Shown: positions 9,662-56,805, numbered from the stretch's first letter. The stretch is DNA of 64,000 nt from a bacterium (GCA_027483535.1 JAIXUN010000002.1:2294001-2358000); one strand, 5' to 3'. Numbers and translations are program-made. The notes: a model not told the origin generated them from the sequence alone.

Positions 9662-9795
9662 CGCCAAGGGTGAATGTACCCGTTCGGCGATTCTGCCGGT
9701 TTCCTTGAGAGCTCGGTTCTAGCGTTAAATCTTGATAAGCGGTGAACGATTCTATCGAAACCAAAAACGTTCAATCGCTGTATCATTCCATTGTT

Positions 9796-10137
9796 GTGAA
9801 AAAGTCTAAGGCAGTGCCCGCTACTTTTGTCGCCGCCATGGCCGTTGTGATGCTTGCCGGTTGTCAGACCGAACGGCAGGTTCGCCGTTGCATCGACGAA
9901 AAAACGGGGCAAGTCCTTCCAGATTCGTATTGTTCGCCGGGCTATCGGTCATACGGATCTTCGTATCGACCTCTTTGGGGATACGGTGGCGCTTACGATG
10001 GTCGAAGAGTCAGCAACTTTGCGCGAACGCCTTCCGCTTCGGCAGATATCGTTTCGTCGAATGGTTCGGTGATCCAACGAGCCACGCGCGGTGGATTCGG
10101 CGGTTCGGGCCGATCATTCGGTAGCTCGTTCAGTTAA
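9796..10137 (+). CDS. YgiB-like (DUF1190) lipoprotein
   Basis: From GTG 9796 the protein has a clear lipoprotein signal: KKSK, a hydrophobic stretch, then lipobox LAGC with Cys at residue 23. An upstream in-frame GTG at 9742 would add 18 hydrophilic residues in front of the signal, so I prefer 9796. The mature part contains two further Cys and ends in a Gly/Ser-rich RATRGGFGGSGRSFGSS. That tail is like the RGGFG tail of E. coli YgiB. The next gene, 9 bp downstream, is ygiC-like, the same partner as in enterobacteria, which supports the call. Function is unknown. It should be anchored in the inner or outer membrane. Confidence 0.75.
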   Translation: MKKSKAVPATFVAAMAVVMLAGCQTERQVRRCIDEKTGQVLPDSYCSPGYRSYGSSYRPLWGYGGAYDGRRVSNFARTPSASADIVSSNGSVIQRATRGGFGGSGRSFGSSFS

Positions 10138-10146
10138 TCCCACTCC

Positions 10147-11283: not shown

Positions 11284-11292
11284 GGAGAGATC

Positions 11293-12522
11293 TTAGGTGA
11301 TCAGCCGGGCCCGGCGACGGTGCGTGAAGTAGGCCCACGCCCATTGCAACAGCACAATGAGTTTGCGGTCGAAATCAATGAGATACCAAACGTGGACAAA
11401 CAGCCACGCCACCCAGGCGATGAACCCGGTGAGTCGGATATTCCCAACCTGAGCAACCGCTCGCTTGCGACCGATGGTCGCCATGCTCCCTTTGTCCCAA
11501 TAGGCAAACGGAGTGCGCTCGATTTTCCCGGCAAGTTCTGCCTTGATCAATCCCGCCACGTACTTGCCCTGTTGCATCGCGACCGGAGACACGCCCGGGA
11601 GCGGCTTTCCGTCTGGTCCTGCAAGGTGCATCGCGTCGCCGACGACGAAAACGTTAGAGTGCCCCGGAATCGAACAGTCGGGTTGAACCATGGCTCTTCC
11701 CGCCCGGTCGACCTCGGTACCCAGGCTCGCCACGAGCGGATTCGCTCGCACGCCCGCCGCCCACACGATATTAGAAGTGTGTAAGATTTGACCGTTTACC
11801 TTTACAAATCCTTCGCCGATTTCCTCGACCGCGTGCCCAAGTTGAACTTCAACGCCCATCTCTTCCAGCGACCTTTTCGCATAGTCGCTGAGGCTTGGGT
11901 CGAATGCACCCAGCAACCTTGGACCCGCTTCAATCAGGACTACCTTGAGCGCCTCCGGTCGAATGCGTTGAAAGTCGCCTTTAAGAGCCAGCCGTCCGAG
12001 TTCGGCGATGGCTCCGGCCATCTCGACGCCAGTGGGTCCGCCGCCGATCACGACGAACGTGAGCAGCGGTCCGGTATCTCCATCCCCTCTCTCCGCCGCT
12101 TCAAAAGAGCCGAGGACTCGCGAGCGAATGGAAGTTGCATCCGCAAGCGATTTCAGCCCCGGCGCGTGCTTTTCCCAATCGTCTTTGCCGAAGTAGCTGT
12201 GAGTCGCACCGGTGGCGACCACGAGAAAATCAAAATTCAGTTCTCCTGAATCGTGAACGACCTTCTTGCTCTCCAAGTCGATCGAATTCACTTCCGCCAT
12301 GAGAACGGTTGTGTTCTTCTGCCTTCCGACGATCGCCCGAATCGGTGCGGCGATATCGGACGGACTCAGACCGGCTGTCGCGACCTGGTAGAGCAGCGGC
12401 TGAAAGAGGTGGTGATTGGTCCGATCGATCAGAACAACGTCTACATCGATTTTATCAAGCTCTTTTGCCACTCGAAGTCCGCCGAAACCTCCCCCGACAA
12501 TCACCACTCTAGAGCGCGCCAT
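11293..12522 (-). CDS. ndh: Type II NADH dehydrogenase (NDH-2)-like flavoprotein
   Basis: This 409-residue protein has an N-terminal FAD-binding motif (VVIVGGGFGGLRVAKEL), the LFQPLLYQVATAGLSP segment typical of NDH-2, a second dinucleotide site (FVVIGGGPTGVEMAGAIAELG, NADH) and the quinone-side motif GVSPVAMQQGKYVAGLI. The C-terminus has an amphipathic or membrane-spanning segment (GFIAWVAWLFVHVWYLIDF) and a basic tail, as expected for a monotopic inner-membrane enzyme. NDH-2 passes electrons from NADH to quinone without pumping protons. Its location 2 kb from the proton-pumping complex I genes gives the cell two NADH entry points. Start at ATG 12522. Confidence 0.9.
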   Translation of the reverse strand: MARSRVVIVGGGFGGLRVAKELDKIDVDVVLIDRTNHHLFQPLLYQVATAGLSPSDIAAPIRAIVGRQKNTTVLMAEVNSIDLESKKVVHDSGELNFDFLVVATGATHSYFGKDDWEKHAPGLKSLADATSIRSRVLGSFEAAERGDGDTGPLLTFVVIGGGPTGVEMAGAIAELGRLALKGDFQRIRPEALKVVLIEAGPRLLGAFDPSLSDYAKRSLEEMGVEVQLGHAVEEIGEGFVKVNGQILHTSNIVWAAGVRANPLVASLGTEVDRAGRAMVQPDCSIPGHSNVFVVGDAMHLAGPDGKPLPGVSPVAMQQGKYVAGLIKAELAGKIERTPFAYWDKGSMATIGRKRAVAQVGNIRLTGFIAWVAWLFVHVWYLIDFDRKLIVLLQWAWAYFTHRRRARLIT

Positions 12523-43434: not shown

Positions 43435-44901
43435 ATGGCTATAACGATCGTTTGTGGACTTGGTCAGATAGGTTTCCGAACCGCGCTGTTACTGATGCGT
43501 CTCGGGCAGGAAGTTGTTGTAGTCACCCGGGAGGCGAAAGACCACTATCGGTCCACTTTAGAAGCACTTGGCGTTTCCATCCACGTGGGAGACGCCCGCG
43601 TTACCCAACTTCTCGAAGTTGCGGGCCTAGCCGATGCCCACGCGCTGGTGATTTGCACGGGCGATGATCTGGTCAACATTGAGATCGCTCTCGACGCCCG
43701 GAACGCTAAACCGGACATCCGCCTGGTTTTGAGACTTACCGATAACAACCTGGCCGAAGTGCTTCAAACCGGCTTCGACTTCGCTTCTGTCATCCCGGTC
43801 AGCGAACTCACTGCTCCGGCCTACGCCATGGCCGCTCTCGACGCAAAGGCGGCTTCAACACGAGCCGGTTCAGGTGCGATAGAGCGGATCATTGGAACGC
43901 CAAGCTGGGAAGGTCGCCGATGGGTGCTTGCCGAAGTCGAAGCCAACGATTCGCGCATCTATCAAAAGGTCGCCGACGATACGGACAACCTGGTCGACGC
44001 CCTCATCCCTTGGGAGAGTTGGGTCGATAAGTCGCGTGTGGCGTGGACCAAGAGCAAGGCTCGCAAGCGCACTCCTTGGGAAGTTTGGCAAGACGTCAAG
44101 ATCGGCTATCGGTACGCCTTTCTCGGGGTCGCTTTGCTGGCGACATTTAGCACCATGTACTTTGCCAGAGCCCTCCAACTCAGGCCCAGCGAGGCGTTCT
44201 ACTTCGTGGTCACTACGCTGACGACCACCGGTTACGGCGACATCACTCCCAAGGGCAAAGGGCTTTCGGTTCTTCTCTACACCTGCTTCATGATGATGAG
44301 CGGCTCGGTTGGCGTCGCCGTGATGTACTCGGCCATTACCGACCAGGTGGTTCGAACAAGATTGGACTCGGCGAGAGGTCGCCGTAAGGTTCGATCCAGC
44401 GGGCACATCGTGGTCGTTGGTCTTGGCGAGGTGGGTGCCGAAACCGTGCGCGAATTGGAGCGTCTCGGCGCTTCTCCGGTGGTGATCGACGATCAAACGG
44501 AGAATCCGAACCGCGATGCTCTCACGAGGAAGTCGGTTGTGATTCGCGGCGATGCTCGAACGCGGCGTACCTTGGAACGGGCGAACGTCGCTGAAGCCGA
44601 CACCCTTCTGGTGCTTACGGGTAACGACGCGGTCAACCTTTCGGTGGCGCTCGCGGCAAAACAGATGAATCCCAAACTGAAGACGGTGATCCGAGTCTTC
44701 GATCACGCCTTCGCCGGAAAGGTCGAAAAAGGATTCGGTGTCACCGACGCCATCAGCGTTGCCGATATCGCCGCTCCCCATTTTGCAGGAGCGGCTCTAT
44801 TCCCCAATGCCGTCGCGTCTTTTGCCTTCCAAGATCGGCTACTCGTGTTGCAAGATCTGCCCGGAGAGGCGTTGGGGCTGGTTGCGATGTCGCTGAAATA
44901 G
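43435..44901 (+). CDS. Potassium channel with RCK domains on both sides of the pore
   Basis: A 488-residue protein with order RCK-pore-RCK. The N-terminal TrkA-N domain (about residues 1-190) starts ITIVCGLGQIGFRTALLL, a Rossmann nucleotide site. Two transmembrane helices (about 226-248 and 280-305) flank the filter TTTGYGD, which selects K+. A second TrkA-N domain follows (HIVVVGLGEVGAETVRELERLG, about 323-488). Most bacterial RCK channels have only the C-terminal domain. Nucleotide or ion binding should gate the pore. TAGGAT at 43416 may be the -10 element. Confidence 0.9.
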   Translation: MAITIVCGLGQIGFRTALLLMRLGQEVVVVTREAKDHYRSTLEALGVSIHVGDARVTQLLEVAGLADAHALVICTGDDLVNIEIALDARNAKPDIRLVLRLTDNNLAEVLQTGFDFASVIPVSELTAPAYAMAALDAKAASTRAGSGAIERIIGTPSWEGRRWVLAEVEANDSRIYQKVADDTDNLVDALIPWESWVDKSRVAWTKSKARKRTPWEVWQDVKIGYRYAFLGVALLATFSTMYFARALQLRPSEAFYFVVTTLTTTGYGDITPKGKGLSVLLYTCFMMMSGSVGVAVMYSAITDQVVRTRLDSARGRRKVRSSGHIVVVGLGEVGAETVRELERLGASPVVIDDQTENPNRDALTRKSVVIRGDARTRRTLERANVAEADTLLVLTGNDAVNLSVALAAKQMNPKLKTVIRVFDHAFAGKVEKGFGVTDAISVADIAAPHFAGAALFPNAVASFAFQDRLLVLQDLPGEALGLVAMSLK

Positions 44902-44912
44902 CGCGGGCTAGC

Positions 44913-44932
44913 TAGGATTTTTATCGTAGAAT
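44913..44932 (+). promoter_or_regulatory. BlaI-type operator and -10 element of the blaI-blaR1 operon
   Basis: TAGGAT (44913-44918), TTTT, ATCGTA (44923-44928) matches the TACGAT-N4-ATCGTA sites at 47.7 kb with one mismatch. TAGAAT (44927-44932) is a good -10 element that overlaps it and lies 6 bp before ATG 44939, so the message may be leaderless. Autorepression by BlaI is the natural reading. Confidence 0.7.
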
Positions 44933-44938
44933 AGGCTC

Positions 44939-45355
44939 ATGGGTCGAAAACCGGGAAAGTCGTTAGTCACCCCGGCAGAGGCCCGAATCCTGGAAATTCT
45001 TTGGGAACACCCGGATCAATCCGTACGAGAGATTTGGGAGAAACACTTTGAAGCTTCAGGGGTTGCGTACACCACGGTTCTTAAGACTCTGCAGAACATG
45101 CATGAGAAGAGCCTCGTGGTTCGAGAGGACGATTCTCGATCACACCGATATCGCGCTTCAGCTCCCGAAGAGGAGACCAAGCGCAAGTTCGCCACTGACT
45201 TCCTAACGCGTGTCTTTGGAGGATCGCCGTCCGAATTCCTTCGACATGCGATCGACCCTACCGAGGTCACCCAGGAAGACATCAAGGCGCTTGAAACTGT
45301 GCTCACCGAGTTGAAGAAAACTCATGCAGCCGACCCTCCAGATAACCCCCGCTAA
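44939..45355 (+). CDS. blaI: BlaI/MecI/CopY family transcriptional repressor
   Basis: A 138-residue repressor of normal length. TPAEARILEILWEHPDQSVREIWEKH and SGVAYTTVLKTLQNMHEKSLVVREDD form the winged helix typical of BlaI/MecI, with the tip SHRYRASAPEEETKRKF and a C-terminal helix for dimerisation. Repressors of this family dimerise on palindromes and are released when the BlaR1-type protease cleaves them; CopY members respond to copper directly through a CxC-type Cys motif that is absent here. It overlaps the protease gene by 32 bp. Operator copies near it and at 47.7 kb indicate its targets. Confidence 0.93.
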   Translation: MGRKPGKSLVTPAEARILEILWEHPDQSVREIWEKHFEASGVAYTTVLKTLQNMHEKSLVVREDDSRSHRYRASAPEEETKRKFATDFLTRVFGGSPSEFLRHAIDPTEVTQEDIKALETVLTELKKTHAADPPDNPR

Positions 45356-46388
45356 CCTGTTCGACCTCCTTGGTCGAGTTGCCCCCGCGATTGCGCTCCT
45401 CTCCTTGGCGCCGTCTCTTTTGGTGGTTCTTCTCCGCCGAGGTCGCTGTACTCCTGTTCGCTCGGCACTCGCTCTGGAAGGGATCATCGTTCTATTCATC
45501 TTGTGTAGCGTTGCCCTGTGGATGAACGCTCCGAGATGGACCATTCATTCGCCGATAGGATCCCTCGAGCGTCTGTTCGGCGCGATCTGGGTGGCCGGTG
45601 CAGCCGTGTCTATTGCCCTGCGAGTTGTTGAGATTTTGCGCCTAGGGAGAACTCTTCAAAAGGCGGAGCTTCTCCCTCACCCATCAAGCCGTGTTTATGC
45701 TTTGCCTCACTCGCTGGCATCGCACGGAGCGCTGGTTTTTCAAAACAGGATCTATCTGGATCGGGAGATTTGGGGAGCCGCCGATGCCGAAATTCTCCGG
45801 TCGATACTGGCTCACGAGAACGCCCACCTCAAGCACCACCACTGGACTCGTTCGATAGTCAATAGTTTTGTCGGGGCGATTTTTTGGTGGGTCCTCCCGT
45901 TACGCTGGACCCTATCCGGACTGAGGGGCGAGTACGAGTCGACCGCCGACGCCATCGCCGGGGTCTCGAACCTTGCCGGCTACATCGAATCCTTACTCTG
46001 GCTGGCTCGCCGTTTGCGGGGTGCGAGTCGTGTGCCGGAAGTTGCTCTGGGAATTGCCGGGCAACCTAACCATCGTTGGGTCAACCACCGCTGGGGCAAT
46101 CATCGCTGGGATCGCCTTCAGCGACTGGTCCGACCAGAAGAGAAACAGGCGATGAGTTGGCTTTCAGGCGCAACCCTCGGCATGGCAACGTTGACGGTCG
46201 TCACTACGAGCTTGTTGGTTAGCCACTTGCGGACACCGAAAACGATTTCGATTACCGGTGCACCCTCTCCATCGATTCAGCTTTCAATCGAAGACGAGGA
46301 AGCCCCTTCTCTCACCAGTGAGACGAAGAGGCCCAGGGAGACGAGCGGGCTCAGCGCGCCAAAGTTTCGAGTTATCTACCGAAACTGA
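45324..46388 (+). CDS. BlaR1-type M56 membrane metallopeptidase without a penicillin-binding sensor domain
   Basis: A 354-residue protein with N-terminal transmembrane helices (IALLSLAPSLLVVLL, IIVLFILCSVALWM, LFGAIWVAGAAVSIAL), the zinc site HENAH (residues 164-168) with Glu in RGEYESTADA (about 203-205), another hydrophobic hairpin and a last helix (LGMATLTVVTTSLLVSHL). Only about 55 residues follow outside. BlaR1 of about 600 residues carries a transpeptidase-like sensor there, so beta-lactam sensing is unlikely. Oddly, a triple unit NHRWV-NHRWG-NHRWD lies at residues 249-263. It should cleave the BlaI-like repressor on an envelope signal. Confidence 0.88.
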   Translation: MQPTLQITPANLFDLLGRVAPAIALLSLAPSLLVVLLRRGRCTPVRSALALEGIIVLFILCSVALWMNAPRWTIHSPIGSLERLFGAIWVAGAAVSIALRVVEILRLGRTLQKAELLPHPSSRVYALPHSLASHGALVFQNRIYLDREIWGAADAEILRSILAHENAHLKHHHWTRSIVNSFVGAIFWWVLPLRWTLSGLRGEYESTADAIAGVSNLAGYIESLLWLARRLRGASRVPEVALGIAGQPNHRWVNHRWGNHRWDRLQRLVRPEEKQAMSWLSGATLGMATLTVVTTSLLVSHLRTPKTISITGAPSPSIQLSIEDEEAPSLTSETKRPRETSGLSAPKFRVIYRN

Positions 46389-47058
46389 GTTCGCTTTCTT
46401 TAGCTTTAAAGACCTTCCCCTTCAGCTTTTCCCAGGCGGCCTGCTTGGTTGGGTCAAGCAATTTTCGAACAATCTCTCGATGGCTCTTTTCGAGCTTCTT
46501 CATCCGCTTCACCGCTTCGTCCGTAAACCTTGGGAAGTACTCCATGGCAAGTTCGGTGATCTCCCTATCCGCCTCCTGGAACGCCTTCTTGATCGAGTCG
46601 AGATCGGCTTCGGTCAGCCCAAGCTTTTGGATGACTTCCTTTTCCAGAAAGCAACGTTCGCCGTTGACCTGGAGTTTGATCTCGCCAAGGCGTTCCTTTT
46701 TCTCGGACGGAAGTTTGTCGACGACTTTCTCTTGGATTGCCTTTACAAGAACAGGATGATCCTTTGGGTGGTATTGGGAGGGATCGACCTCGATATTCTC
46801 GCCTTCCACCCGAACTCCAAAGGGATCGCAGATGGCAGCGACCTCTTTGCGAAGAGCTTCCTTTTCGGCGAACGAATATCCAAGATCTTCAAGAACGTCG
46901 GAGCGAATCAACAAAGCGTAGTTGTCTTGATACTGCTTCACGGAGACCGATTGGCTCACCGACTTCGGCCCTGTTGCCGCTGAAATGGAGACGACAACCA
47001 AGTGGGCGAGCAAAGTGAGCAAAAGCCAACCACGAGACATCCCTCTCATTAGGCTCAT
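46372..47058 (-). CDS. Secreted Spy-like helical protein, paralog B
   Basis: A 228-residue protein with a signal peptide (LLLTLLAHLVVVSISA). The mature part is helical and charged; IKLQVNGERCFLEKEVIQKLGLTEADLDSIKKAFQEADRE matches the same block of the upstream gene and resembles Spy/CpxP LTxxQ-type periplasmic proteins. Family assignment is by pattern. Such proteins act as periplasmic chaperones or metal-stress factors. The ATG overlaps the stop of paralog A (ATGA). Its 3' end overlaps blaR1 by 17 bp on the other strand. Controlled with paralog A by the operators at 47.7 kb. Confidence 0.75.
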   Translation of the reverse strand: MSLMRGMSRGWLLLTLLAHLVVVSISAATGPKSVSQSVSVKQYQDNYALLIRSDVLEDLGYSFAEKEALRKEVAAICDPFGVRVEGENIEVDPSQYHPKDHPVLVKAIQEKVVDKLPSEKKERLGEIKLQVNGERCFLEKEVIQKLGLTEADLDSIKKAFQEADREITELAMEYFPRFTDEAVKRMKKLEKSHREIVRKLLDPTKQAAWEKLKGKVFKAKESELSFGR

Positions 47059-47678
47059 CGCGGCAACCTCACGAGTTTCGGTCCCAACATCGCCGCATAC
47101 GCCTTTTCTTGAGTGGCGTCCAAAGTCGCCCTAGCTTGGGAGTTCGCCTTCATGCGAATCTGTTCAAGCTTCTTCGTCACTTCCGGACTCATCTGGAAGG
47201 TGCCGTTGCTGAAGAGAGCCGATGTCTCCGAGTCGGCAGTAGAGAAAATCTGCTTGATTGCTTTGATCTGGGGTTCTCGAAGCTTGAGAGCCGTTTTCAG
47301 ACCTGGCTCTAGCAAACCCCGTTCCCCATGAATCTGGAGTTTTAGCTGCGATATCCGTGCCCTCTGGGCGGGTTTCAAGTGCGGAAAAACTGTTTTCGAG
47401 ACCTCGGCGTCGATCGCAGGGCCCTGCTTGCCAGACCCGCTGGACATGATGGTCATGCCTCCTTGGACCCGCATTCCAAACTTCTTTCGCACCTCGTCGA
47501 GAAGTGGATTGATCTTCTTCAACTGATCGTCCGTGAGGTTCAAATCTTTCTGGCAAGACTTGTTGGAGAGGACGGTGAGAGACGTGGGACTCGGTGAAGC
47601 AAACGAAACAGTTCCCTGACCAAGCGCGTGCCCAAGGGCCGCGCAAATGAGGAGTGTGAGAATTCCATGCAAGCGCAT
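47055..47678 (-). CDS. Secreted Spy-like helical protein, paralog A
   Basis: 207 residues from ATG 47678; the frame opens with a TTG at 47696 inside the operator, which I reject. Signal peptide MRLHGILTLLICAALGHALG. The mature part has DLNLTDDQLKKINPLLDEVRKKF (LTxxQ-like) and LKLQIHGERGLLEPGLKTALKLREPQIKAIKQIFSTADSE, clearly related to paralog B. Two operators and a promoter lie within 70 bp upstream. The likely role is protection of the envelope under the stress sensed by BlaR1. No metal-binding Cys/Met cluster is obvious. Confidence 0.78.
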   Translation of the reverse strand: MRLHGILTLLICAALGHALGQGTVSFASPSPTSLTVLSNKSCQKDLNLTDDQLKKINPLLDEVRKKFGMRVQGGMTIMSSGSGKQGPAIDAEVSKTVFPHLKPAQRARISQLKLQIHGERGLLEPGLKTALKLREPQIKAIKQIFSTADSETSALFSNGTFQMSPEVTKKLEQIRMKANSQARATLDATQEKAYAAMLGPKLVRLPR

Positions 47679-47683
47679 AATCA

Positions 47684-47705
47684 GGCTACGATACAAATCG
47701 TAGCC
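47684..47705. promoter_or_regulatory. BlaI-type operator O2 (22-bp palindrome)
   Basis: GGCTACGAT-acaa-ATCGTAGCC is a perfect interrupted palindrome that lies just downstream of the -10 element of the leftward Spy-like operon, near its transcription start. A bound repressor would block elongation or open complex formation. Confidence 0.85.
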
Positions 47706-47716
47706 TGCGTTTCCAA

Positions 47717-47745
47717 AATTTACGATATTTATCGTAGTTAATCAA
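47717..47745 (-). promoter_or_regulatory. Promoter of the Spy-like operon with BlaI-type operator O1 in its spacer
   Basis: On the minus strand TTGATT (47740-47745), 17-bp spacer, TAAATT (47717-47722). Operator TACGAT-attt-ATCGTA (47721-47736) fills the spacer. O1 and O2 centres are 34 bp apart, about three helical turns, which suits cooperative binding of two dimers on one DNA face. Confidence 0.8.
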
Positions 47746-47959
47746 ATTCCGCGGAATAGCCCTCTCGACTCAGAGCATCAAGAATCCGTTGCGGCGAGAC
47801 GCTCGCCGGCTGGACAGAAGCTTCTCCTCCGTCGAGGCTGACTGCCACGGAGCTCACTTCTTCGATACTCGTCAATGCACGGGTTACATGCGCCACGCAC
47901 TTGTTGCAGTGCATCCCGGTTACTCGAAACTCAAGTCGGTTTTGTTTAGGTTTTTCCAT
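47738..47959 (-). CDS. CopZ-like heavy-metal-associated (HMA) domain protein
   Basis: A 73-residue single HMA domain. GMHCNKCVAHVTRAL holds the metal site (Cys18 and Cys21) and the fold beta-alpha-beta-beta-alpha-beta is complete. Such proteins bind Cu(I) or similar ions and pass them to ATPases or sensors. No P-type ATPase is in this window. It is in line with the barrel and secreted metal-type genes upstream (14-bp gap), so it probably belongs to that operon. Operator O1 begins directly after its stop codon. Confidence 0.92.
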   Translation of the reverse strand: MEKPKQNRLEFRVTGMHCNKCVAHVTRALTSIEEVSSVAVSLDGGEASVQPASVSPQRILDALSREGYSAEFD

Positions 47960-47973
47960 TTTTCTTGTACCTA

Positions 47974-48723
47974 TTAGAGTCCCAGCGTGTAGCCAAGGAC
48001 GAGTCGAAACGCACGGACCGATCCGAAGTCGAGTTCAACTCCAAAATCGACCGTGCCAAGTGAGGAGACTTGTTTGCGGATTCCAAGACCGGCTCCTGGA
48101 ATCCAATCTGATGAGCCGAAACCGGCGGTTCGGCCGGAAAACTCGGCGACGAGCGTGCTCTCCAAATGCCGAGGGGCACCTAAGGGTTCGGAGTAGCCAA
48201 AGTGAATGTCCCAAGCCGTCCCCCTGCTTTGCAGCGAGGTCAAGCCGTCCACGTTCACGTGCAATCGACCGTAATCGCCCGTTTGCTTATCGGCAATGAA
48301 CCGGGTGCGGAGGTAATCCTCGTTCTGCTCCCGAACATATTCCAGCCGATACGCCAAGCCAAAAGAGGCTAAGAAGGTTCCCTCTGGGTTGGATTGTCTT
48401 AGCTGCTCGAAGTAGGCGGCATCGAAGGCAGATTCCGACCTCCGTCCGCTCTGGAACGACGGATCAAACCCAATCTCGAAGTGCCGATTAACGGCGAAGC
48501 CGACCTTGTATTCGCCTCGCAACTCGCCAAGGGGTCGTTGCCCGCGAATGAGTGACGACCTCAGCCCGAACTGCAGTTCCCGCGACCCGTAGGGCAAAGG
48601 AGCCACGTCTTCGAATCGAAGGGGACGGGCATCGTCAAGATTTCCATGATCGCTTGCCAATGCTGGAGTCGCGCAGAGTGCGAGACCCAATGCAGCAGTC
48701 AAGAGTTTGAAAGCTTTGATCAC
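47974..48723 (-). CDS. Outer-membrane beta-barrel protein (transporter-like)
   Basis: A 249-residue protein with signal peptide (LLTAALGLALCATPALA) starting at GTG 48723, which overlaps the upstream stop (GTGA). The mature part has alternating beta-strands (LQFGLRSSLIRG, YKVGFAVNRHFEIGFDPSF, AWDIHFGYSEPLG, VDFGVELDFGSVRAFRLVLGYTLGL), as in small outer-membrane barrels of the phenol/MetA-like transporter group. Its place in a metal-type gene cluster suggests export or sensing of metal or an envelope effect. Specific function unknown. Confidence 0.75.
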   Translation of the reverse strand: MIKAFKLLTAALGLALCATPALASDHGNLDDARPLRFEDVAPLPYGSRELQFGLRSSLIRGQRPLGELRGEYKVGFAVNRHFEIGFDPSFQSGRRSESAFDAAYFEQLRQSNPEGTFLASFGLAYRLEYVREQNEDYLRTRFIADKQTGDYGRLHVNVDGLTSLQSRGTAWDIHFGYSEPLGAPRHLESTLVAEFSGRTAGFGSSDWIPGAGLGIRKQVSSLGTVDFGVELDFGSVRAFRLVLGYTLGL

Positions 48724-50291
48724 CGGCTTCTCACCTCTAAAGAGGGTGATTTTGTGCCCGAAGGATTCAACCGGTCAGGATTCGGGCGGTAAGGATTCGG
48801 GCGGCTGATCTTTCGGTAGGTTTCAGGCTTGCCGTTGTACCGATTCGCCCAATCGGCGAGGACGAGAGGTTGGGCGGATTGGAATCCGGGGTTCGCTTTG
48901 AGGTATCTCTCGAACGCAGCCCGATTGGTGAACGCACGCGACCAAGATTCGCACTCCGGATGCTCGGCGGGTTCGTCCAAGAACACCGCTTCGGGCAGAT
49001 TAGACCGAAATGTTCCTTCCTCGTCCGAGATCAGCACCAGTATCCGGCTGGGATCCTCAGTGGCGGCTCGGAGGATGACGCGCCCGATGGACTCGGATGC
49101 CATGTCTCGAGCGCACAACACGCAACGGACCGACATTGTCCAGCCGTTCGACGATACCGTCGCCCCATACGGTCCGGCAAACCCGGTGGCGGTGAGCTTG
49201 GGACTATCTGGAAAAGACACCGAGCAATGGGCGCATTCCGACATATCCATCCAGCCCATGCCCGTCATGAACATCTCATCGCCGTCGCTTCCCTTCATCC
49301 AACCCATTCCCGGCATCGAGTTCGGGTGTCGATGGTCGTGGATACCTGGTGCGACCGTCTCCACCTCGTCAGCCGCGACGGGCTCACAATTCCGGTGCGT
49401 GGAAGCGAGAACGTTGATGATCGCGGCGTCAACCGCCTGGTCCTTCTGACTCTCGGTGAGGCGGTCGTCGGCCAGAATGTCGTTCACGTTGTCGTGAAGC
49501 ATGTGCAGGTTGTCGAACGCGTTCGCGATTTGCGGAAACCGACGGGCAAACCTTGGACTGATCTCGGCGGTCATCGGCATGAAGTCTCGATCGGTGCGAG
49601 TCAGTTCTTCGGTGCGATACCGATCACCAAGGACCGCGTACTGCTCTCGCTGGGAGGCGAGGGCCGTTCCGTAGAGCATGTCATAGTTCGCGGTCTGCAG
49701 CCAGTGATAGCCCCAAAACAGTGCGTTCGTTTTTGGGTACTTGCTTCGGAAGAGGCCCGACCAAGAAAAGCCGTCTAGCCGATCCATGTTCATCGGAAGT
49801 CCGGTGAGAGCAAAAGGCTGCGCCGAATAGAACTTCCAGAGCCGCTGAATCTCTTCCTCTTTGCGCTGAAAATCCCAGCCAGGATAAGCCAACACGTCGA
49901 TGGTTTGAAAGTGCAGCGTGTGCGCCCACTCGAACACCTTTTCGAGCGATGAAAACCGAGTGGAGAATCGCGGGGAAATCGCGGCTTCATCCACCAAGAA
50001 TCGGGGAGGATTTCGCAGGATGGCCGCAATCTGCGGCTGCACCTGCGATTCCAATCTATCCTTTCGACCCCTTACCAGAGCCTCGTAAGCTAGCGCATGA
50101 CCGACACCCGTCGCGTACATATCGCGAGCAAATTCGGGAATCAGGTCGATGGATCGGTTGTAGGGTCCGCGCAGGTACGAGAGACGATCCTCCGTCCTCC
50201 GGTTCATCCAATCCGGCTTTTCCTGAGCCTGTCCACCGCTTGCCAAGGCGAGTGCAAGCGGCATGAGTGTGGAGAAGAACGCGCTCGTCAC
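48720..50291 (-). CDS. Secreted Met/Cys-rich protein with a CxxC domain
   Basis: 523 residues from GTG 50291, which overlaps the upstream stop (GTGA); this start gives a signal peptide (TSAFFSTLMPLALALASGGQA). Residues about 20-330 form an unknown helical domain with few Cys. Then a Met-rich stretch (MPGMGWMKGSDGDEMFMTGMG and MDM) is followed by CAHC and RCVLC, and by EAVFLDEP...C..WSRAFTNRAAFERYLK and PLVLADWANRY. This C-terminal arrangement parallels the next gene's product and recalls NosL-like copper proteins. Met and Cys clusters suggest copper binding. The assignment of metal is inferred. Confidence 0.7.
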   Translation of the reverse strand: MTSAFFSTLMPLALALASGGQAQEKPDWMNRRTEDRLSYLRGPYNRSIDLIPEFARDMYATGVGHALAYEALVRGRKDRLESQVQPQIAAILRNPPRFLVDEAAISPRFSTRFSSLEKVFEWAHTLHFQTIDVLAYPGWDFQRKEEEIQRLWKFYSAQPFALTGLPMNMDRLDGFSWSGLFRSKYPKTNALFWGYHWLQTANYDMLYGTALASQREQYAVLGDRYRTEELTRTDRDFMPMTAEISPRFARRFPQIANAFDNLHMLHDNVNDILADDRLTESQKDQAVDAAIINVLASTHRNCEPVAADEVETVAPGIHDHRHPNSMPGMGWMKGSDGDEMFMTGMGWMDMSECAHCSVSFPDSPKLTATGFAGPYGATVSSNGWTMSVRCVLCARDMASESIGRVILRAATEDPSRILVLISDEEGTFRSNLPEAVFLDEPAEHPECESWSRAFTNRAAFERYLKANPGFQSAQPLVLADWANRYNGKPETYRKISRPNPYRPNPDRLNPSGTKSPSLEVRSR

Positions 50292-50800
50292 TTTGGGCTC
50301 ACCGCCTGCGAGCAGCATGTCCCGCCGCTCGGCTCAAACTTGTGCTTCTTAACCGCTTCGATAAACTCCGTGAGCGTAAGCGGCTTACTCTCGCCCAACT
50401 CCAGTTTCAGGCGAACCGACTCCAACCCTTCCAACGAGCTAAAGGCACGACTTTGTTGAGCGCAAAGGCTCATCTTCGACGTTCCCATCGTGAACACCGC
50501 CTTCTCCGGAGCGGTCCACTTCCCTTGAACCCGCTTGAGCACAACCGGCTCTCCGATCTTCTCGCTCGGCGAGTACACCGTGAGGTCGACCTTGTAGCGA
50601 TCCTGGTCCTTGAGGACGCAGTAGATCGATCGATATTCGATGCGCTTGTTGCCGTACCGAACCACCACTTCATTGTCGAAGTTGTCGTTGTTTTGAACAA
50701 GCGGAAGTTTGCAATTGGGACAGTCTGCCTCGTGAAGAAGGGCTCCAGAACTGTATGCCACCATCGCCCCGAATGCCATCATCCTAACCGCGGCGATCAT
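50288..50800 (-). CDS. Secreted protein with a CxxC motif, possibly NosL-like
   Basis: A 170-residue protein with a short hydrophobic N-terminus (AAVRMMAFGAMVAYSSGALL). CPNCKLPLVQ (Cys27 and Cys30) is followed by VVVRYGNKRIEYRSIYCVLKD, VYSPSEKIGEPVVLKR, AVFTMG, C..QSRAFSSLEGLE and PLTLTEFIEAV. The Cys, SRAF and PLxL elements occur in the same order in the C-terminal part of the next gene downstream. The C-terminus ends GGTCC plus a few residues, another possible metal site. ATG overlaps the upstream stop (ATGA). Role probably metal handling in the periplasm; inferred. Confidence 0.7.
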   Translation of the reverse strand: MIAAVRMMAFGAMVAYSSGALLHEADCPNCKLPLVQNNDNFDNEVVVRYGNKRIEYRSIYCVLKDQDRYKVDLTVYSPSEKIGEPVVLKRVQGKWTAPEKAVFTMGTSKMSLCAQQSRAFSSLEGLESVRLKLELGESKPLTLTEFIEAVKKHKFEPSGGTCCSQAVSPK

Positions 50801-52053
50801 TCTTTCACCTCTACCGTGAAACCGAGGGTGCGAATTCCCCCTCGCCAGTCGAACTGCGCGTACGCTCGATAGAGGCCGGGCTTCGGGAATCTGCCCGAGA
50901 ACCGAACGATGCCTTTTTTCACGAGCGCGCTGTTCTCCTCATCCTCTTTTGGGTGGCTGTGCACCACGGTTTGACCGTCTTTGTGAAAGATCATCAGGTG
51001 CCCCGCCGCACCAAGCCACGGGACGGTATCGGTGGCAGGCATTCCCGTTTTGGAGTCGAACAGCTTCACCTGCATCGTGGTCGTCTTGCCCATCGGGATC
51101 GCTCCTCCTTGGTTGGAAATGACGCCCGTCAAGCCAGAATCGACGGATTTAGAAGAGGGTTTCCACGGAGCTTTCCAAGTCGGTTGTCCACCTTTGATGT
51201 CGACTTGTCCGATGAGGACTCGGCTACCCTTGCCCTTCGGAGCCACGTCCCCGTACACCCAGTACGACCCACCCGCCGGGAATTTGATCGGAACCGACCA
51301 AGTGCCGTCTGGCTGCATCTTTGGGTGCTCATGCAAGAACCAGTACATGTCCTTGCTGGCAAGCAGCAAATGGAATTCCATTTCGTGCGCAACATCAAAC
51401 GCGGTTTGAACCTTGCCTGTCTTGGTTTCGACCACTTGCATTTTGAGCTCGCCAACCCTCCCGGCTTGTAAGGAATTCTTCGGGGTCAGGACCTTGAGCG
51501 AAAAGGGCGGCTTTGCGCTGCTGACGGGTCGCTCGTCGGCAACGTCGATGACGAACGCGATCCTCTCTTTGCCGTGGCCGGGAATGTCGAGATCGAGCGA
51601 GATTCGATACTCGCCACCGTGGGGGAAGTAGCAGACGACTCCGTAGTCGCCCGGAATCCCTTCGCGGTGAACTTCAGGAATCGCATCGGGCATTCCTGGC
51701 ATCGAGGGCATGGAGATCACTCCGGTCGCTTTGATGCCGCCAACGCCCTTATAGCCTTCTTCGACCGGATCCTTTTGGCGGGTATCGACCACACGAAACT
51801 CAATGTCGATCTCCTCGCCCGCATAGACGCCACCATCCGGGAGACGAAGTTCCGCCACATAGGAGCCGAACTTCACCTTCGTGATTTGTTTGATGGCAAC
51901 GGTCTTCTGACCCTGATTTTTTGTCTTGGGATGGTTGGAGTGCTGGGCGGCTGTTAGGACGAACGGAGCAGTATGGACAAGCGTCGAAGCCGGGGCAGCG
52001 ACGGGTAGTTGAGGCGAGCTTAAGCTCGCAATTGCGAGGAAGGTGTTGATCAT
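50797..52053 (-). CDS. Secreted FixH/YtkA-like protein with HxHP motifs
   Basis: A 418-residue exported protein with two or more immunoglobulin-like beta domains. VAHEMEFHLLLASKDMYWFLHEHPKMQPDGTWSVPIKFPAGGSYWVY and the second copy LGAAGHLMIFHKDGQTVVHSHPKE...GLYRAYAQFDW are typical of FixH/YtkA-like domains that accompany copper efflux and cytochrome oxidase genes. Another Met-rich, Pro-rich patch (ISMPSMPGMPDAIPEVH) lies near residue 115. His and Met are suited to bind copper. It is the second gene of the leftward operon. The YtkA-like call is fairly safe, metal specificity is not shown. Confidence 0.75.
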   Translation of the reverse strand: MINTFLAIASLSSPQLPVAAPASTLVHTAPFVLTAAQHSNHPKTKNQGQKTVAIKQITKVKFGSYVAELRLPDGGVYAGEEIDIEFRVVDTRQKDPVEEGYKGVGGIKATGVISMPSMPGMPDAIPEVHREGIPGDYGVVCYFPHGGEYRISLDLDIPGHGKERIAFVIDVADERPVSSAKPPFSLKVLTPKNSLQAGRVGELKMQVVETKTGKVQTAFDVAHEMEFHLLLASKDMYWFLHEHPKMQPDGTWSVPIKFPAGGSYWVYGDVAPKGKGSRVLIGQVDIKGGQPTWKAPWKPSSKSVDSGLTGVISNQGGAIPMGKTTTMQVKLFDSKTGMPATDTVPWLGAAGHLMIFHKDGQTVVHSHPKEDEENSALVKKGIVRFSGRFPKPGLYRAYAQFDWRGGIRTLGFTVEVKE

Positions 52054-52121
52054 GTTTCTGAGAATGCGTCCGGTAACGAGGGGCTACAGGCGACGAGGCG
52101 CGGCAATATGCCGCGATATTC

Positions 52122-52703
52122 TCAGATTGCAGGTGGCGCGCGATCAGGGGGGCCGAGTCGACAAACGGTCGGCGGAGGTCCACGGGTGACCCGCGCAAAC
52201 ACTGCTGTTTCACCGGGCTCCGAAGAGTCATCGGGAAGCGAAATCTCGGGAGCGGGTGCGAGAGATTCGAACGCAAAGCCCGAGGCTAGCTGAACCTTTG
52301 AAATGGGACGAGTCTCTGCGGGAGCCATCTCGCATTTGCAAGCGGCGGCAGAACTCGCAATCTCCTTGGCTCGCGGCTTGGAGTCGGTGAAGTGAGATTG
52401 CTTTTTAGAAGTCTTCTGGGGATGACAGCAAGACTCCCCAACTTTCTGAACCGACGCTTCCTTTGTATCAGAAACCGAACGAGAACCTGTGTTCTCATTG
52501 GGTTTCCCAGAAACGTTCGGCGAGCCCTTTGTTGCGGCGCAGTGCGCACAATCGTGCTCGGTCGCCCGTTTCGATTTCACGCAGATCAGGGGTCCGGTCT
52601 GCTGTGCCGACCCGATCATCGGGAGGATCAGGGTAAAGAGGAGAATGAGCAACGTTCCGATAGATCGGATCGTGAGCTTCGATTTTTGTTGACGCCTCTT
52701 CAT
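52122..52703 (-). CDS. Cys-rich exported small protein, first gene of the metal-type operon
   Basis: A 193-residue protein with a signal or anchor (SIGTLLILLFTLILPMIGSA). The mature part is hydrophilic and carries DCAHC, SCCHP and CKCEM, a possible multi-Cys metal site, then a Pro-rich C-terminus. AAGGAGG lies 5-6 bp before ATG 52703, one of the best ribosome-binding sites in this window, so strong translation is likely. No BlaI-type operator is seen upstream. It is separated by 68 bp from the FixH/YtkA-like gene. I do not recognise its family. Confidence 0.68.
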   Translation of the reverse strand: MKRRQQKSKLTIRSIGTLLILLFTLILPMIGSAQQTGPLICVKSKRATEHDCAHCAATKGSPNVSGKPNENTGSRSVSDTKEASVQKVGESCCHPQKTSKKQSHFTDSKPRAKEIASSAAACKCEMAPAETRPISKVQLASGFAFESLAPAPEISLPDDSSEPGETAVFARVTRGPPPTVCRLGPPDRAPPAI

Positions 52704-52786: not shown

Positions 52787-53680
52787 ATGAGTTCCTCGCC
52801 CCCACCGCCGAACGGTCCCCTTAATGGCATCGCCCAGTCAATTGCCGACGCCTTTGCGGGCAAGCAGGACGACCAACTAAGGCCGTCCGCGCTTGATCTC
52901 TTTATCTGGCAACGCGGTGGCAAGATCCACGGCGGCGGAATTCGGGGAATGAAGCTCGGGTTCGGTATCGCGGGTGGAGTCAATCTTGGCTTCGGAGTTC
53001 TCTTTCTTGCGCTAACTGCCAAGCAGCCAGGATTCATCGTTCCTGCGAGCATCATGGGCTTCATCGGGCTTGGATTCCTGATCGCCACCGCTTTCCTTTT
53101 TGCCAAGTATCGGAATCGAGATAATGAGGTCCGCCTCACCAAAGAGGGCAGCCAACTGCTCTATCGGTTAGTGAATCACGTTGGCTACATGAACCCGCAT
53201 CAGTATTCGGGGGCAAGATACGGATCGCCGTGGCATCGTTTCTGGGGCATCAAAACGGCTTCAAACATGCTCTCCAAGCAGGGTTTTGATATCTTGGAAT
53301 CCGCAGCTGGCCAGTTTGTGCGAATCAACGCTCAGGTTGAATTGGATGCCAACGGGCTCAAGAGACTGTCTCGAAACTCCGGCGCCGTTCGTCTCGCGGC
53401 TGAGGAGACGATGATCACGCTCATCAATCAAGTGGCTCTCTTGGAACAACACCCGGAATCGTTGGGAGCGATTGCGGATATTGCGAAGAAGGAGATCGCC
53501 AAGATGGTGGAACTCGGCGACCGCATCGAGCAATCAATTACGGGCGAGGACTCCCTACTCGGGATGCACCGAGGCGGCTCCGCCATCGACGGTGTGCTCG
53601 AGAACCTCCGCATGGAACAAGACGCGCTGGACGAAATTCGCTACTCGCAACGCGAAAATCGGCAGGAAGAACGCTCTTAG
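52787..53680 (+). CDS. Hypothetical membrane protein
   Basis: A 297-residue protein. Two transmembrane helices (about residues 57-110: LGFGIAGGVNLGFGVLFLAL and ASIMGFIGLGFLIATAFLFA) follow a Pro-rich cytoplasmic start. The C-terminal 180 residues are helical and charged (LAAEETMITLINQVALLEQHPESLG, IAKKEIAKMVELGDRIEQSI). It resembles no family that I know. It is divergent from the metal-type operon and convergent with the caspase-like gene, whose stop overlaps its own by 4 bp. Confidence 0.65.
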   Translation: MSSSPPPPNGPLNGIAQSIADAFAGKQDDQLRPSALDLFIWQRGGKIHGGGIRGMKLGFGIAGGVNLGFGVLFLALTAKQPGFIVPASIMGFIGLGFLIATAFLFAKYRNRDNEVRLTKEGSQLLYRLVNHVGYMNPHQYSGARYGSPWHRFWGIKTASNMLSKQGFDILESAAGQFVRINAQVELDANGLKRLSRNSGAVRLAAEETMITLINQVALLEQHPESLGAIADIAKKEIAKMVELGDRIEQSITGEDSLLGMHRGGSAIDGVLENLRMEQDALDEIRYSQRENRQEERS

Positions 53681-56600
53681 CCCTGTTCGAAGAAGATTCG
53701 CCAGTCGGTGCGAAGTCCTTTCGCATCGTAAGTGAAGATCGTCCACTTGGTGGTCTTCATCGCCGGATCTTTCGCGAGTCGCCAGGGTGGCAGCTTGGCA
53801 AACAGAGTCGAAACTCCAGTCTCCGACTTCGATTGAGCGCGGAGATTGCCGAGTTTGTCCACTGATCCCGTGAATGTTTCGGTGACCCCGTTTCTAGTGA
53901 GCTGAAGAGTTGCGGCTCCTTTTGAATCGATCTCGATAGTGGCGGTGGCTTTTCCGGCTTCTCCGGCCATGATCACCCCGTCCACCCCAGCCACACCTTC
54001 CCTCGGTGGGTTATCCGTCATGTAATCCCCTTTGCCGCTCGCCCTGCCTTCGTAATCCTTTAGCGATGGGGTTGGCGAGAAGCCCAAATGCAGATAGTGC
54101 GGGGTTTCCATGAGCGTTGTTGTTAGGCCCAGAAGGTAGGAATCCGCCGCCTTGGTTTCGCCCTCTTGCCAGAGGCGATTGATCAGCAACGTCGCACCGA
54201 CCACTTGAATGCCCAGGAGTCGATAATCTTGGTACAAAGCCGACTCTTGCAAGGCCTCGGCTGCCACTTGCCAACGATTCATTCTTGCAAGAACCAGCCC
54301 GAGCACGGCACGCTGGAGGAAGTCGCGCTTAGCTACGGTTTTCGCAAGGGCGTTCTCTAATTCAATCGCACGCTTGTTCTCCGTTTCCTTGGTCCCTTCG
54401 ATGTTCGCCAAGACGAGACGCAACACCCTTGCCTGATCCGCGTAGGCGGGTACAGGCTCGCCTAGATCTTTGGCAAAAGCCTTCGCCTCTGTAATTCGAT
54501 TCCAAGCAATGAGGTGCGCGACCCAGTTCCACTGCAAGATCGTTTTGTCGGGATCCAGAAGGTTCGGCGAATGAATGATTCGCTCCGCCTCTTTTCGGTC
54601 GTCCATGCCGATTGCCGTTTGGTAAAGCACGGTAAGGAGATCCGCACCGGATGGATTTCTATCCGCAACGTCTTTCCAGAGCTGACTGACTTGAAGCTGA
54701 CGTTGGGCGGTGATGCCGAAACTCAAAACGTCAAACCAGGCGCTCGGCGCCAGGGTCCGCTCACGCAAGTACGGCAACAGGGAGCGCCAGTTGCTCAGAG
54801 CTTGCTGCGCGTACGTCTCCAGCGGAATAAGACCCCGACCGACATACTCGCTGACCACGTGATGGGTCGCCATCAGGCCCGCGAAAGTGGATTCGAAGAC
54901 GTCGTCGGTCCCCTTCTCTGCGGCTTGCAAGTACTCCAGAGCCGCGGGATCGGCGTTCAGTGCCGGATCTCCGGACAACACCATCGCAAGCCCTGCGGCA
55001 AGTTGTGCTCGCCAGTCATACGGACGAGCCTTGGCAAGCCTGCGAAACTCGGGAGCCATCTCTTTCAGGCGAGTGGGTGCGGCTTCGATCAGACGCAGGA
55101 TCGAGTAACCCGCCAAATCGGGTTCTTTGGAGAGGGCGAGAGCTAGCTTCTCGGCGGGTTCGGGCCCCACAAAACTTCGGTACCAAACGGCGCGCATGCT
55201 CTGCCAAGTCCCCCAACCTTCTCCCTCTCCCTGCTCGCGCAAAATCTTCGCGACCCGATCGAGGGCCTCGTCGCGAGGAGCATCCACTAGAGATCGGACG
55301 ATGCATTCGAACGAACGCAATGCGACCCAAGACGTCTCGATGACGTCGTCTTTTCCCTCCATCGCGCGCTCGTAAGCGGGTCGTGCTTCGTCAAACTTGC
55401 CTTCCGCCATCAGCGTTTCGGCATGAAGGAAAGCTTGCATCTTCGGACGATCGTTCAGCCCCGCCCCTACTTTCTGCCAGAGCTTGACCAAGTCTTTTTC
55501 GTCGCCCCAACTGCTAATCGTGAACCACGCTAGAAACGCCCCATCGGCCCGATCTGCCCCTTCTTCGAAGAGGTCTATCAATCGGAACGAAGCCTTGATC
55601 CGCTCTTGAACATCCACGTTCGGGAGCGGGTCGAGCATGAGAGCCATGATCCGATCCAACTCCGGTGCGTCCGAGTTCACGATTGCGCGAAGGGTCCGGC
55701 TCGCTTCGGTGGATCGACCGAGAGCGATCGCCACTCCGGCTAAAAGAAACCGATCTGCGGTATCGGCCAGCCCCGAACCTTCTAGCGACTTGAGAAGCTC
55801 TAAACACTCTTGGTTCCGACCTTGAGACTCCAGGGTCGCGGCGAATTCTTTCACCGTGGCGTGATAACTCTCCGGTTGCAGACTCTTTCCCGCCTCGTCG
55901 AGCACCTTGGAGAGATCGGAGCGGTCTTTAGGCGGAAACGCGCCGATGAGGACGTCGCGGGTGGGGTCGGTCCAAGCTGTTGGCACTTGAGGATCGCTCG
56001 GATAGTCGCGTTCGGTGAACGCCTTGGCGCGACGCGAGGTCTGGTCGGCAACGGCCGAAGCCCACAGCGCTCCGAAGTCGGTGCGGACCTTTTCGTCCTG
56101 GATGCTGCGCAGGAAACTCCAAGTGAACACCCCTCCGCCCACGCGTTCATTCTCGTAAGACCGTCCCCCAGGTTTGCAGCCCAGCAGAACACCGATATTG
56201 GCTTTTCGACTCAGGGCTAAGAGCTCTTCCCCGAAAGGGTTTTCGGTGCCCGACCTGCACGCATCGGCGATGATGAGCACATTCTTGAGCCCCGCCTGCA
56301 CGAATCTCTCAACGACTTTCCTTACCGGGATACCGACCTTCTCAACGTTTTCCAGCTTCGCATCGCTCGGGCAAAGGTAGTCGCCCGAGGGCAGGCCAAT
56401 TCCGTGCCCGGAGAAGTAGAGGAGGAAGAGGTCGCCTTTTTGTAGCAAGGGGTCTTTCAGCAGATTGTCGAGGGCTTCCTGGACATTGGCAATGGTCGGG
56501 GCTTCGCTTTGCGCCCCGGCTTCGTCCGAAAGGAACTTTAGATTCTCCGGGGTGAACCGAAACCGTTCCAGGAGTGCTTCACGCACTTTGCGGGCATCGG

Positions 56601-56805
56601 AGGCGGCATATCCCAGTTTGCCGAGCGACGCGTAATTGCTCACCCCGATGACAAGGGCTCTTCGCTTCGGAGGGACGATCGGGAGCGGGTCGCCCGTGGA
56701 TCCGATCGCCAGGTTCCCGAGAACCACGAGCAAAACGGTTACGAGTAACCGACACAGAATTCGAGTGTTAAGACTTTTGCTCATGCCCTCGCGCAAATGT
56801 ATCAT
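53677..56805 (-). CDS. Caspase-like (peptidase C14) protein with long helical repeat region
   Basis: 1042 residues. After a membrane anchor or signal (RLLVTVLLVVLGNLAIG), a caspase domain covers about residues 47-290: RALVIGVSNYASLGKLGYAASDA, LFLLYFSGHG with catalytic His134 and VLIIADACRSG with catalytic Cys183. The rest is helical hairpins of TPR type (SAQLAAGLAMVLSG-like, LALSKEPDLAGYSILRLIEAAP), then a small beta-rich end. Caspase-like proteins of bacteria cut after Arg/Lys or Asp and are linked to signalling or cell death. The export signal would place this one outside the cytoplasm. ATG 56784 is a second possible start. Confidence 0.88.
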   Translation of the reverse strand: MIHLREGMSKSLNTRILCRLLVTVLLVVLGNLAIGSTGDPLPIVPPKRRALVIGVSNYASLGKLGYAASDARKVREALLERFRFTPENLKFLSDEAGAQSEAPTIANVQEALDNLLKDPLLQKGDLFLLYFSGHGIGLPSGDYLCPSDAKLENVEKVGIPVRKVVERFVQAGLKNVLIIADACRSGTENPFGEELLALSRKANIGVLLGCKPGGRSYENERVGGGVFTWSFLRSIQDEKVRTDFGALWASAVADQTSRRAKAFTERDYPSDPQVPTAWTDPTRDVLIGAFPPKDRSDLSKVLDEAGKSLQPESYHATVKEFAATLESQGRNQECLELLKSLEGSGLADTADRFLLAGVAIALGRSTEASRTLRAIVNSDAPELDRIMALMLDPLPNVDVQERIKASFRLIDLFEEGADRADGAFLAWFTISSWGDEKDLVKLWQKVGAGLNDRPKMQAFLHAETLMAEGKFDEARPAYERAMEGKDDVIETSWVALRSFECIVRSLVDAPRDEALDRVAKILREQGEGEGWGTWQSMRAVWYRSFVGPEPAEKLALALSKEPDLAGYSILRLIEAAPTRLKEMAPEFRRLAKARPYDWRAQLAAGLAMVLSGDPALNADPAALEYLQAAEKGTDDVFESTFAGLMATHHVVSEYVGRGLIPLETYAQQALSNWRSLLPYLRERTLAPSAWFDVLSFGITAQRQLQVSQLWKDVADRNPSGADLLTVLYQTAIGMDDRKEAERIIHSPNLLDPDKTILQWNWVAHLIAWNRITEAKAFAKDLGEPVPAYADQARVLRLVLANIEGTKETENKRAIELENALAKTVAKRDFLQRAVLGLVLARMNRWQVAAEALQESALYQDYRLLGIQVVGATLLINRLWQEGETKAADSYLLGLTTTLMETPHYLHLGFSPTPSLKDYEGRASGKGDYMTDNPPREGVAGVDGVIMAGEAGKATATIEIDSKGAATLQLTRNGVTETFTGSVDKLGNLRAQSKSETGVSTLFAKLPPWRLAKDPAMKTTKWTIFTYDAKGLRTDWRIFFEQG

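Follow-up and report, generated by a model that had tools for sequence, protein, structure and literature searches.

The window analysed here is a 64,000-nt stretch of bacterial DNA (GCA_027483535.1, JAIXUN010000002.1:2294001-2358000) from a 3.77-Mb genome. The region under study, positions 44939 to 52703 of that stretch (all coordinates refer to the whole window), likely holds two units, a leftward copper operon (52703-47738) headed by a candidate ribosome-arrest leader and a separate unit made up of blaI-blaR and spy1-spy2. All ten open reading frames (ORFs) are open in the window. The host is placed in the Armatimonadota, probably in the Fimbriimonadaceae, since the relatives carrying the same gene cassette (ytkA, small, large and omp) in a genome-collection scan are labelled Armatimonadetes, Fimbriimonadaceae or Fimbriimonas. 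The features of the copper operon are as follows.

52122 to 52703, minus strand: candidate copper-sensing arrest leader of 193 amino acids, with a signal-like N-terminus (judged by eye), Cys motifs and a C-terminal RAPP-AI
52332 to 52340, minus strand: CKC motif of the leader, located 63 residues ahead of RAPP and proposed to supply the pair of metal ligands
52131 to 52142, minus strand: codons of the arrest motif RAPP, of which 52134-52136 would occupy the P site of the arrested ribosome
52118 to 52126, minus strand: 5' arm of the predicted masking stem, TCTGAGAAT, overlapping the leader stop codon
52057 to 52065, minus strand: 3' arm of the predicted masking stem, ATTCTCAGA, in the ytkA ribosome-binding region
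50797 to 52053, minus strand: ytkA, YtkA-like exported protein (PF13115, 31.7 bits against a cut-off of 25.9)
50288 to 50800, minus strand: small, exported Cys protein with a MerB/NosL-like domain (hhalign to the C-domain of the large protein; alignment)
48720 to 50318, minus strand: large, 532-amino-acid protein with a His-rich helical repeat N-domain and a MerB/NosL-fold C-domain (AlphaFold2 pLDDT 85)
49290 to 50222, minus strand: His-rich repeat N-domain of the large protein, residues 33-343, here called the His-bundle (AlphaFold2 pLDDT 92.5, modelled alone)
48828 to 49265, minus strand: MerB/NosL-fold domain of the large protein, with two CxxC motifs, CAHC and CVLC (VIA-align)
47974 to 48723, minus strand: omp, encoding an outer-membrane barrel protein; next to the gene of the His-bundle protein, its partner, in nearly all loci
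47738 to 47959, minus strand: copZ, the gene that closes the copper operon, for a CopZ-like HMA metallochaperone (PF00403, E 5e-13; NF047957)

Neighbouring genes overlap by 4 nt (ytkA/small, large/omp and spy1/spy2), by 31 nt (small/large) or by 32 nt (blaI/blaR). The chain is broken by a gap of 68 nt between the leader and ytkA, within which the hairpin lies, and by a gap of approximately 41-59 nt between copZ and spy1, which contains BlaI-type boxes, and the region is therefore not simply one operon. The first-pass annotation had read the genes as a single operon on the grounds that most of the upstream ones overlap by 4 nt. Its assignments of the FixH/YtkA-like and CopZ-like proteins are borne out by the family matches given above. 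A sigma-70 promoter scan returned no match, a result that is uninformative. Selenocysteine was considered and set aside, the TGA codons in three homologue matches occurring only at the match ends.

The multi-Cys ORF at the head of the operon belongs to a family of exported proteins of which all 14 members end in RAPP followed by two or four residues, while the remainder of the sequence, the Cys pair excepted, is very divergent. A wider scan of the genome collection yielded 57 loci, and among their 3984 ORFs of at least 60 amino acids, screened for R[AG]PP ends, 27 terminate in this way; 25 of these immediately precede the cassette and share its strand, one precedes cusBA in locus L052 on the other strand, and one is apparently accidental. 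The L052 ORF (6680-7165, minus strand) is a second RAPP-ending leader with ten Cys residues. In all leaders examined a Cys pair occurs approximately 60-68 residues before R[AG]PP, as CxC or, in three loci, as CxxxC. RAPP is a known ribosome-arrest motif, shared by CruR, with arrest at its two Pro codons (PMC12992588), and CruR combines RAPP with a Cys pair in a copper-responsive leader (PMC9426467, PMC12992588). CutF, encoded in the cutFOG operon of Rhodobacter capsulatus, controls the gene that follows it by means of a stem that covers the ribosome-binding site of that gene (PMC9973294). The multi-Cys ORF is thus probably a ribosome-arrest leader with a Shine-Dalgarno-masking stem, a feature that had escaped the first-pass annotation, and by analogy it appears to be a copper-sensing arrest leader acting in the manner of CutF and CruR.

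The predicted masking stem pairs 52118-52126 with 52057-52065 over 9 bp (minimum free energy -29.8 kcal/mol, z -2.57). An alignment-free arm-swap test covered 22 loci whose spacer is 54-81 nt long; one arm comprised the 24-30 nt beginning at the first Pro codon, and the other the 24-34 nt immediately preceding the ytkA start. Duplexes between the two arms of one locus averaged -18.1 kcal/mol and those between arms exchanged among loci -11.7 kcal/mol; 0 of 100,000 permutations attained the native mean. Repeated on 17 non-redundant loci with the arms shortened, the test gave -14.6 and -9.1 kcal/mol and likewise 0 of 100,000 permutations. Since the swapped arms also hold Pro codons and a Shine-Dalgarno sequence, the effect is more than a resemblance of CCTCCT to an anti-Shine-Dalgarno sequence. 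In 22/22 loci, taking the best duplex of each, the bases with which the ribosome-binding region pairs lie within 16 nt of the first Pro codon, and this 16-nt stretch is what a stalled ribosome would cover. A TTCGTCGTT stretch recurs in the spacers of L059, L033, L051 and other loci, where another GC-rich hairpin also lies between the stem arms.

A copper role for the cassette is strongly supported by its conserved neighbours, in relatives as well as in other phyla, as far as can be judged from gene context. A search for the large protein in 60 relatives (61 genomes with its own) gave matches in 18 of the 61, weak hits and the own genome counted. In all 16 other loci with a full-length large protein (approximately 50-62% identity), ytkA, small, large and omp occur together in an almost constant order, the exception being L041, where ytkA is last. 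Neighbour clustering placed a multi-Cys ORF upstream of the cassette in 12 loci and CopZ or P-type ATPase genes beside it in many. Among the 57 loci of the wider scan, the neighbouring families include P-type ATPase/HMA (25), CueR-like MerR (16), DUF305 (10), CusB-like (9), CsoR-like (8) and CusA-like (8) proteins, and cupredoxin is present in cyanobacterial loci. The suggestion of copper made in the first-pass annotation is thereby strengthened. It had also noted that no P-type ATPase is in view, which is true of the window; the genome does, however, encode one copper-type ATPase, a CopA, at a distance of approximately 210 kb, with no arrest leader found before it, and others lie beside the cassette in many relatives. 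The contrast it drew between a periplasmic binding set and an efflux operon is consequently misleading, as efflux genes adjoin the cassette in many relatives. No description of the gene combination was found in the open papers searched, in line with the novelty that had been claimed for it.

The second unit comprises the following features.

44939 to 45355, plus strand: blaI, BlaI/CopY-family repressor (PF03965, E 9.7e-26, above cut-off), one of three BlaI-family matches in the genome
45324 to 46388, plus strand: blaR, BlaR1/M56-like membrane peptidase of 354 amino acids with HExxH, matching in the M48/M56 peptidase region only
47055 to 47696, minus strand, likely start ATG at 47678: spy1, Spy-like exported protein 1, with a weak LTXXQ match
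46372 to 47058, minus strand: spy2, Spy-like exported protein 2, 24% identical to Spy1
47721 to 47736, unstranded: BlaI-type operator, exact palindrome TACGATATTTATCGTA, one of two exact copies in the genome
47687 to 47702, unstranded: BlaI-type operator, exact palindrome TACGATACAAATCGTA, before spy1, the other exact copy
44913 to 44928, unstranded: single-mismatch BlaI-type operator, 10 bp ahead of blaI

The repressor of the proposed BlaI/BlaR1-type pair is clear by Pfam, but its partner has only a weak M56 score, reaching 16.2 bits against the cut-off of 31 for PF05569, and no penicillin-binding sensor domain was found in it. Likewise, the two Spy-like proteins match each other, but Spy1 falls below the cut-off for Spy/LTXXQ (PF07813; E 0.0065, 17.6 bits against 24.3) and Spy2 has no match to this family; distant relatives of Spy1 are scattered elsewhere in 44 of the 60 other genomes. 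The 16-bp palindrome TACGAT-N4-ATCGTA has its two exact genomic copies between copZ and spy1, and BlaI-type boxes occur at blaI and spy1, with none before the copper genes. From this operator placement, blaI-blaR-spy1-spy2 would constitute an autoregulated envelope-response unit of its own that does not control the copper unit. The architecture resembles BlaI/BlaR1 and CopY systems in its winged-helix repressor, M56-like peptidase, palindromic operators and operator before its own gene, and differs from them in the operator sequence, in the lack of a detectable penicillin-binding sensor domain and in targeting Spy-like genes. When co-occurrence was followed in relatives, leader-ytkA-small-large-omp was conserved, but no blaI, blaR or spy matches were found at their copper loci. 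Two further genes border the region, a potassium-channel-like protein of the TrkA-N type (43435-44901, plus strand; by eye) directly upstream of blaI, and a 1042-amino-acid protein (53677-56805, minus strand) that adjoins the copper operon and has the look of a caspase-type peptidase (SGHG and DACRSG motifs, by eye).

The interpretation that we favour, and regard as likely, is that the copper operon is governed by an arrest-leader translational switch and stands beside a separate BlaI unit. The leader would be exported during its synthesis, its Cys pair having passed the Sec channel once the ribosome is at RAPP. Without metal, export would pull the chain, the ribosome would finish, and the stem would re-form and keep the operon off. 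Metal on the Cys pair, most likely copper, would hold the chain, and the ribosome would stall at the two prolines, as other RAPP peptides suggest. The computed overlap indicates that the stalled ribosome would cover the 5' stem arm, which may free the ytkA ribosome-binding site, and ytkA and the coupled genes would then be translated. YtkA, the two MerB/NosL-fold proteins and the His-bundle may bind periplasmic copper and pass it to or through the Omp barrel, while CopZ would serve the cytosolic side. Because stalling would unmask ytkA, a stall would mean that the operon is on, and because the neighbouring genes are mostly involved in efflux and detoxification, copper should promote stalling, as in CutF.

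Several points weigh against this interpretation. Arrest by RAPP on Armatimonadota ribosomes is extrapolated from other RAPP peptides, and the identity of the metal from neighbouring genes. Neither the window leader nor six relatives matched DUF2946 in Pfam or NCBIfam, and the spacing from Cys pair to RAPP is approximately 60-68 residues as opposed to the 45 of CutF and CruR. The per-position pairs behind the 22/22 result were taken from each locus's best duplex, and six deeper loci with spacers of 140-288 nt lay outside the arm-swap test. RNAalifold returned no consensus pairs on a MAFFT alignment that was poor and in which the arms were misaligned, and the case for covariation thus rests on the alignment-free swap test.

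YtkA and NosL-type proteins can also act in copper delivery, and the main rival holds that a CruR-like leader would stall by default at low copper and be relieved by copper, which would switch off an acquisition operon. RAPP and the Cys pair are common to both schemes, and CruR is relieved by copper (PMC9426467). However, the stem directly masks the ribosome-binding site at every locus of the arm-swap set, unlike the Rho-based CruR switch, the neighbours are mainly export, detoxification and copper-stress regulator genes (CopA, CusAB, CsoR, CueR), and the second RAPP leader heads cusBA, so that we consider this rival unlikely. A SecM-like role, in which the leader monitors Sec export, the cysteines are incidental and the operon answers blocked export, would accord with the signal-like N-terminus and with the action of RAPP leaders found before sec genes (PMC12992588). 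As the operon holds no sec gene, its downstream genes are copper genes and the Cys pair and its spacing are kept across very divergent leaders, we regard this role as highly improbable.

The first-pass model of one metal and envelope-stress system with BlaI/BlaR1 over the whole set draws on the physical adjacency of the units, on the membership of CopY-like copper repressors in the BlaI family and on the lack of a detectable terminator between copZ and spy1, which makes read-through from the copper genes into spy1-spy2 possible. Control of the copper genes by BlaI is nevertheless unsupported, given operators only at blaI and spy1 and no match to blaI, blaR or spy at the relatives' copper loci, and the model appears doubtful, more so than the CruR-like one. 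A structural, secreted metallothionein-like protein, with RAPP as part of its fold and the stem a coincidence, would also be Cys-rich with a signal-like N-terminus. It would have to reconcile a very divergent sequence with the constancy of the terminal RAPP and the Cys pair, as well as the 0 of 100,000 permutations in the arm-swap test, and is highly improbable.

Within the operon proposed to lie under the arrest leader, the large protein and Omp form a pair that recurs beyond the phylum, and neither the His-rich repeat domain nor its pairing with Omp across phyla figured in the first-pass annotation. In VIA-align comparisons of the AlphaFold2 model the C-domain superposes on MerB (3f0o, Z 11.9; range 9.3-11.9) and NosL (7osf, Z 6.6; range 5.4-6.6), with which it shares Cys pairs, and it is related to the small protein (hhalign, 99.3%). 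It differs from them in being fused to the His-bundle or, in one relative (L044), to a region resembling an outer-membrane barrel. No Pfam match to NosL (PF05573) exists in this genome. The N-domain has no Pfam match and no PDB fold with Z of at least 5; the best candidates, G-protein-coupled receptors, reached Z 4.4, which is not meaningful for a soluble bundle, and no relative is claimed. Searches of PDB sequences with profiles of the large, Omp, small and YtkA proteins gave nothing significant. The leader, small, large and Omp proteins have no family match of their own; of the Omp homologues, 11/30 match the barrel family PF13557, and the YtkA proteins of relatives often contain N-terminal YHS-like Cys repeats (alignment; named by eye).

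The His-bundle contains duplicated helical hairpins (repeat 2 versus 4, 0/1000 shuffles; repeat 3 versus 4, 2/1000) and may possibly represent a new protein family inside the operon. Residues H133, H136, H205, H272 and H275 are invariant in 43 sequences, as is H74 in the 42/42 that have a residue there, which suggests an internal metal site in the bundle. It is paired with an omp gene at nearly every locus, in Cyanobacteria, Chloroflexi, Gemmatimonadota, Methylobacterium and others, and its tails vary from the NosL fold in Armatimonadota to His/Met-rich in cyanobacteria and Met-rich in Methylobacterium. There is, in our estimation, an even chance that the two proteins constitute an undescribed envelope copper-handling pair with interchangeable metal-binding tails in at least six phyla (Armatimonadota, Cyanobacteria, Chloroflexi, Gemmatimonadota, Pseudomonadota and Omnitrophota), in which the invariant HxxH motifs of the repeats would form the internal site, the barrel would store metal or export it across the outer membrane and, in the Armatimonadota, the pair would be placed under an arrest leader whose arrest-codon region locks the next gene. 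One gene in L044 (7980-9698, minus strand) joins a NosL-fold domain to a long barrel-like C-terminal region, linking the two functions. In numerous Microcystis genomes the pair is accompanied by a CueR-like MerR regulator (L087-L093, around 9480-11880), and it also occurs on secondary replicons of Methylobacterium and Gemmatirosa (L134:7914-10269, L135:7902-10147, L136:5016-7137); in L134 no copper genes are found among its annotated neighbours.

The leader is of a known kind, similar to CutF and CruR, but its phylum, operon and geometry are new, to judge by the main texts of the cited papers. With CutF it shares an exported Cys-pair leader, a proline-rich stall-like end, a short spacer, a stem at the ribosome-binding site and downstream copper genes. 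It differs in preceding YtkA, MerB/NosL-fold, His-bundle and Omp proteins instead of a multicopper oxidase, in its longer Cys-pair spacing, in a true RAPP, in a masking arm that includes the arrest-codon region itself and in lacking a DUF2946 match; Armatimonadota are not mentioned in the main text of the CutF paper (PMC9973294). CruR of Bordetella pertussis, a DUF2946 protein for which arrest was shown in vitro (PMC12992588), similarly has RAPP three residues from its end, a Cys pair at fixed spacing and the first position in a copper operon, but uses copper-relieved Rho termination in a 162-bp spacer where a masking stem is predicted here (PMC9426467, PMC12992588). In SecM-secA, ApdA and ApdP, C-terminal RAPP/RAGP arrest also opens a stem before the next gene, but these leaders monitor protein export, in contrast to the conserved Cys pair and copper genes in this family.

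The genes of the His-bundle and barrel form a conserved pair that as yet carries no family name. They are located beside copper genes in bloom-forming cyanobacteria, so that their function can be tested directly in strains that are culturable. To our knowledge, the way in which a nascent exported chain senses metal is understood for no more than a few leaders of Pseudomonadota. If true, the Armatimonadota leader family, in which the arrest motif is invariant, the Cys spacing is almost fixed and the masking stem survives the arm-swap test, would make this mechanism a general one and would offer many natural variants for testing it.

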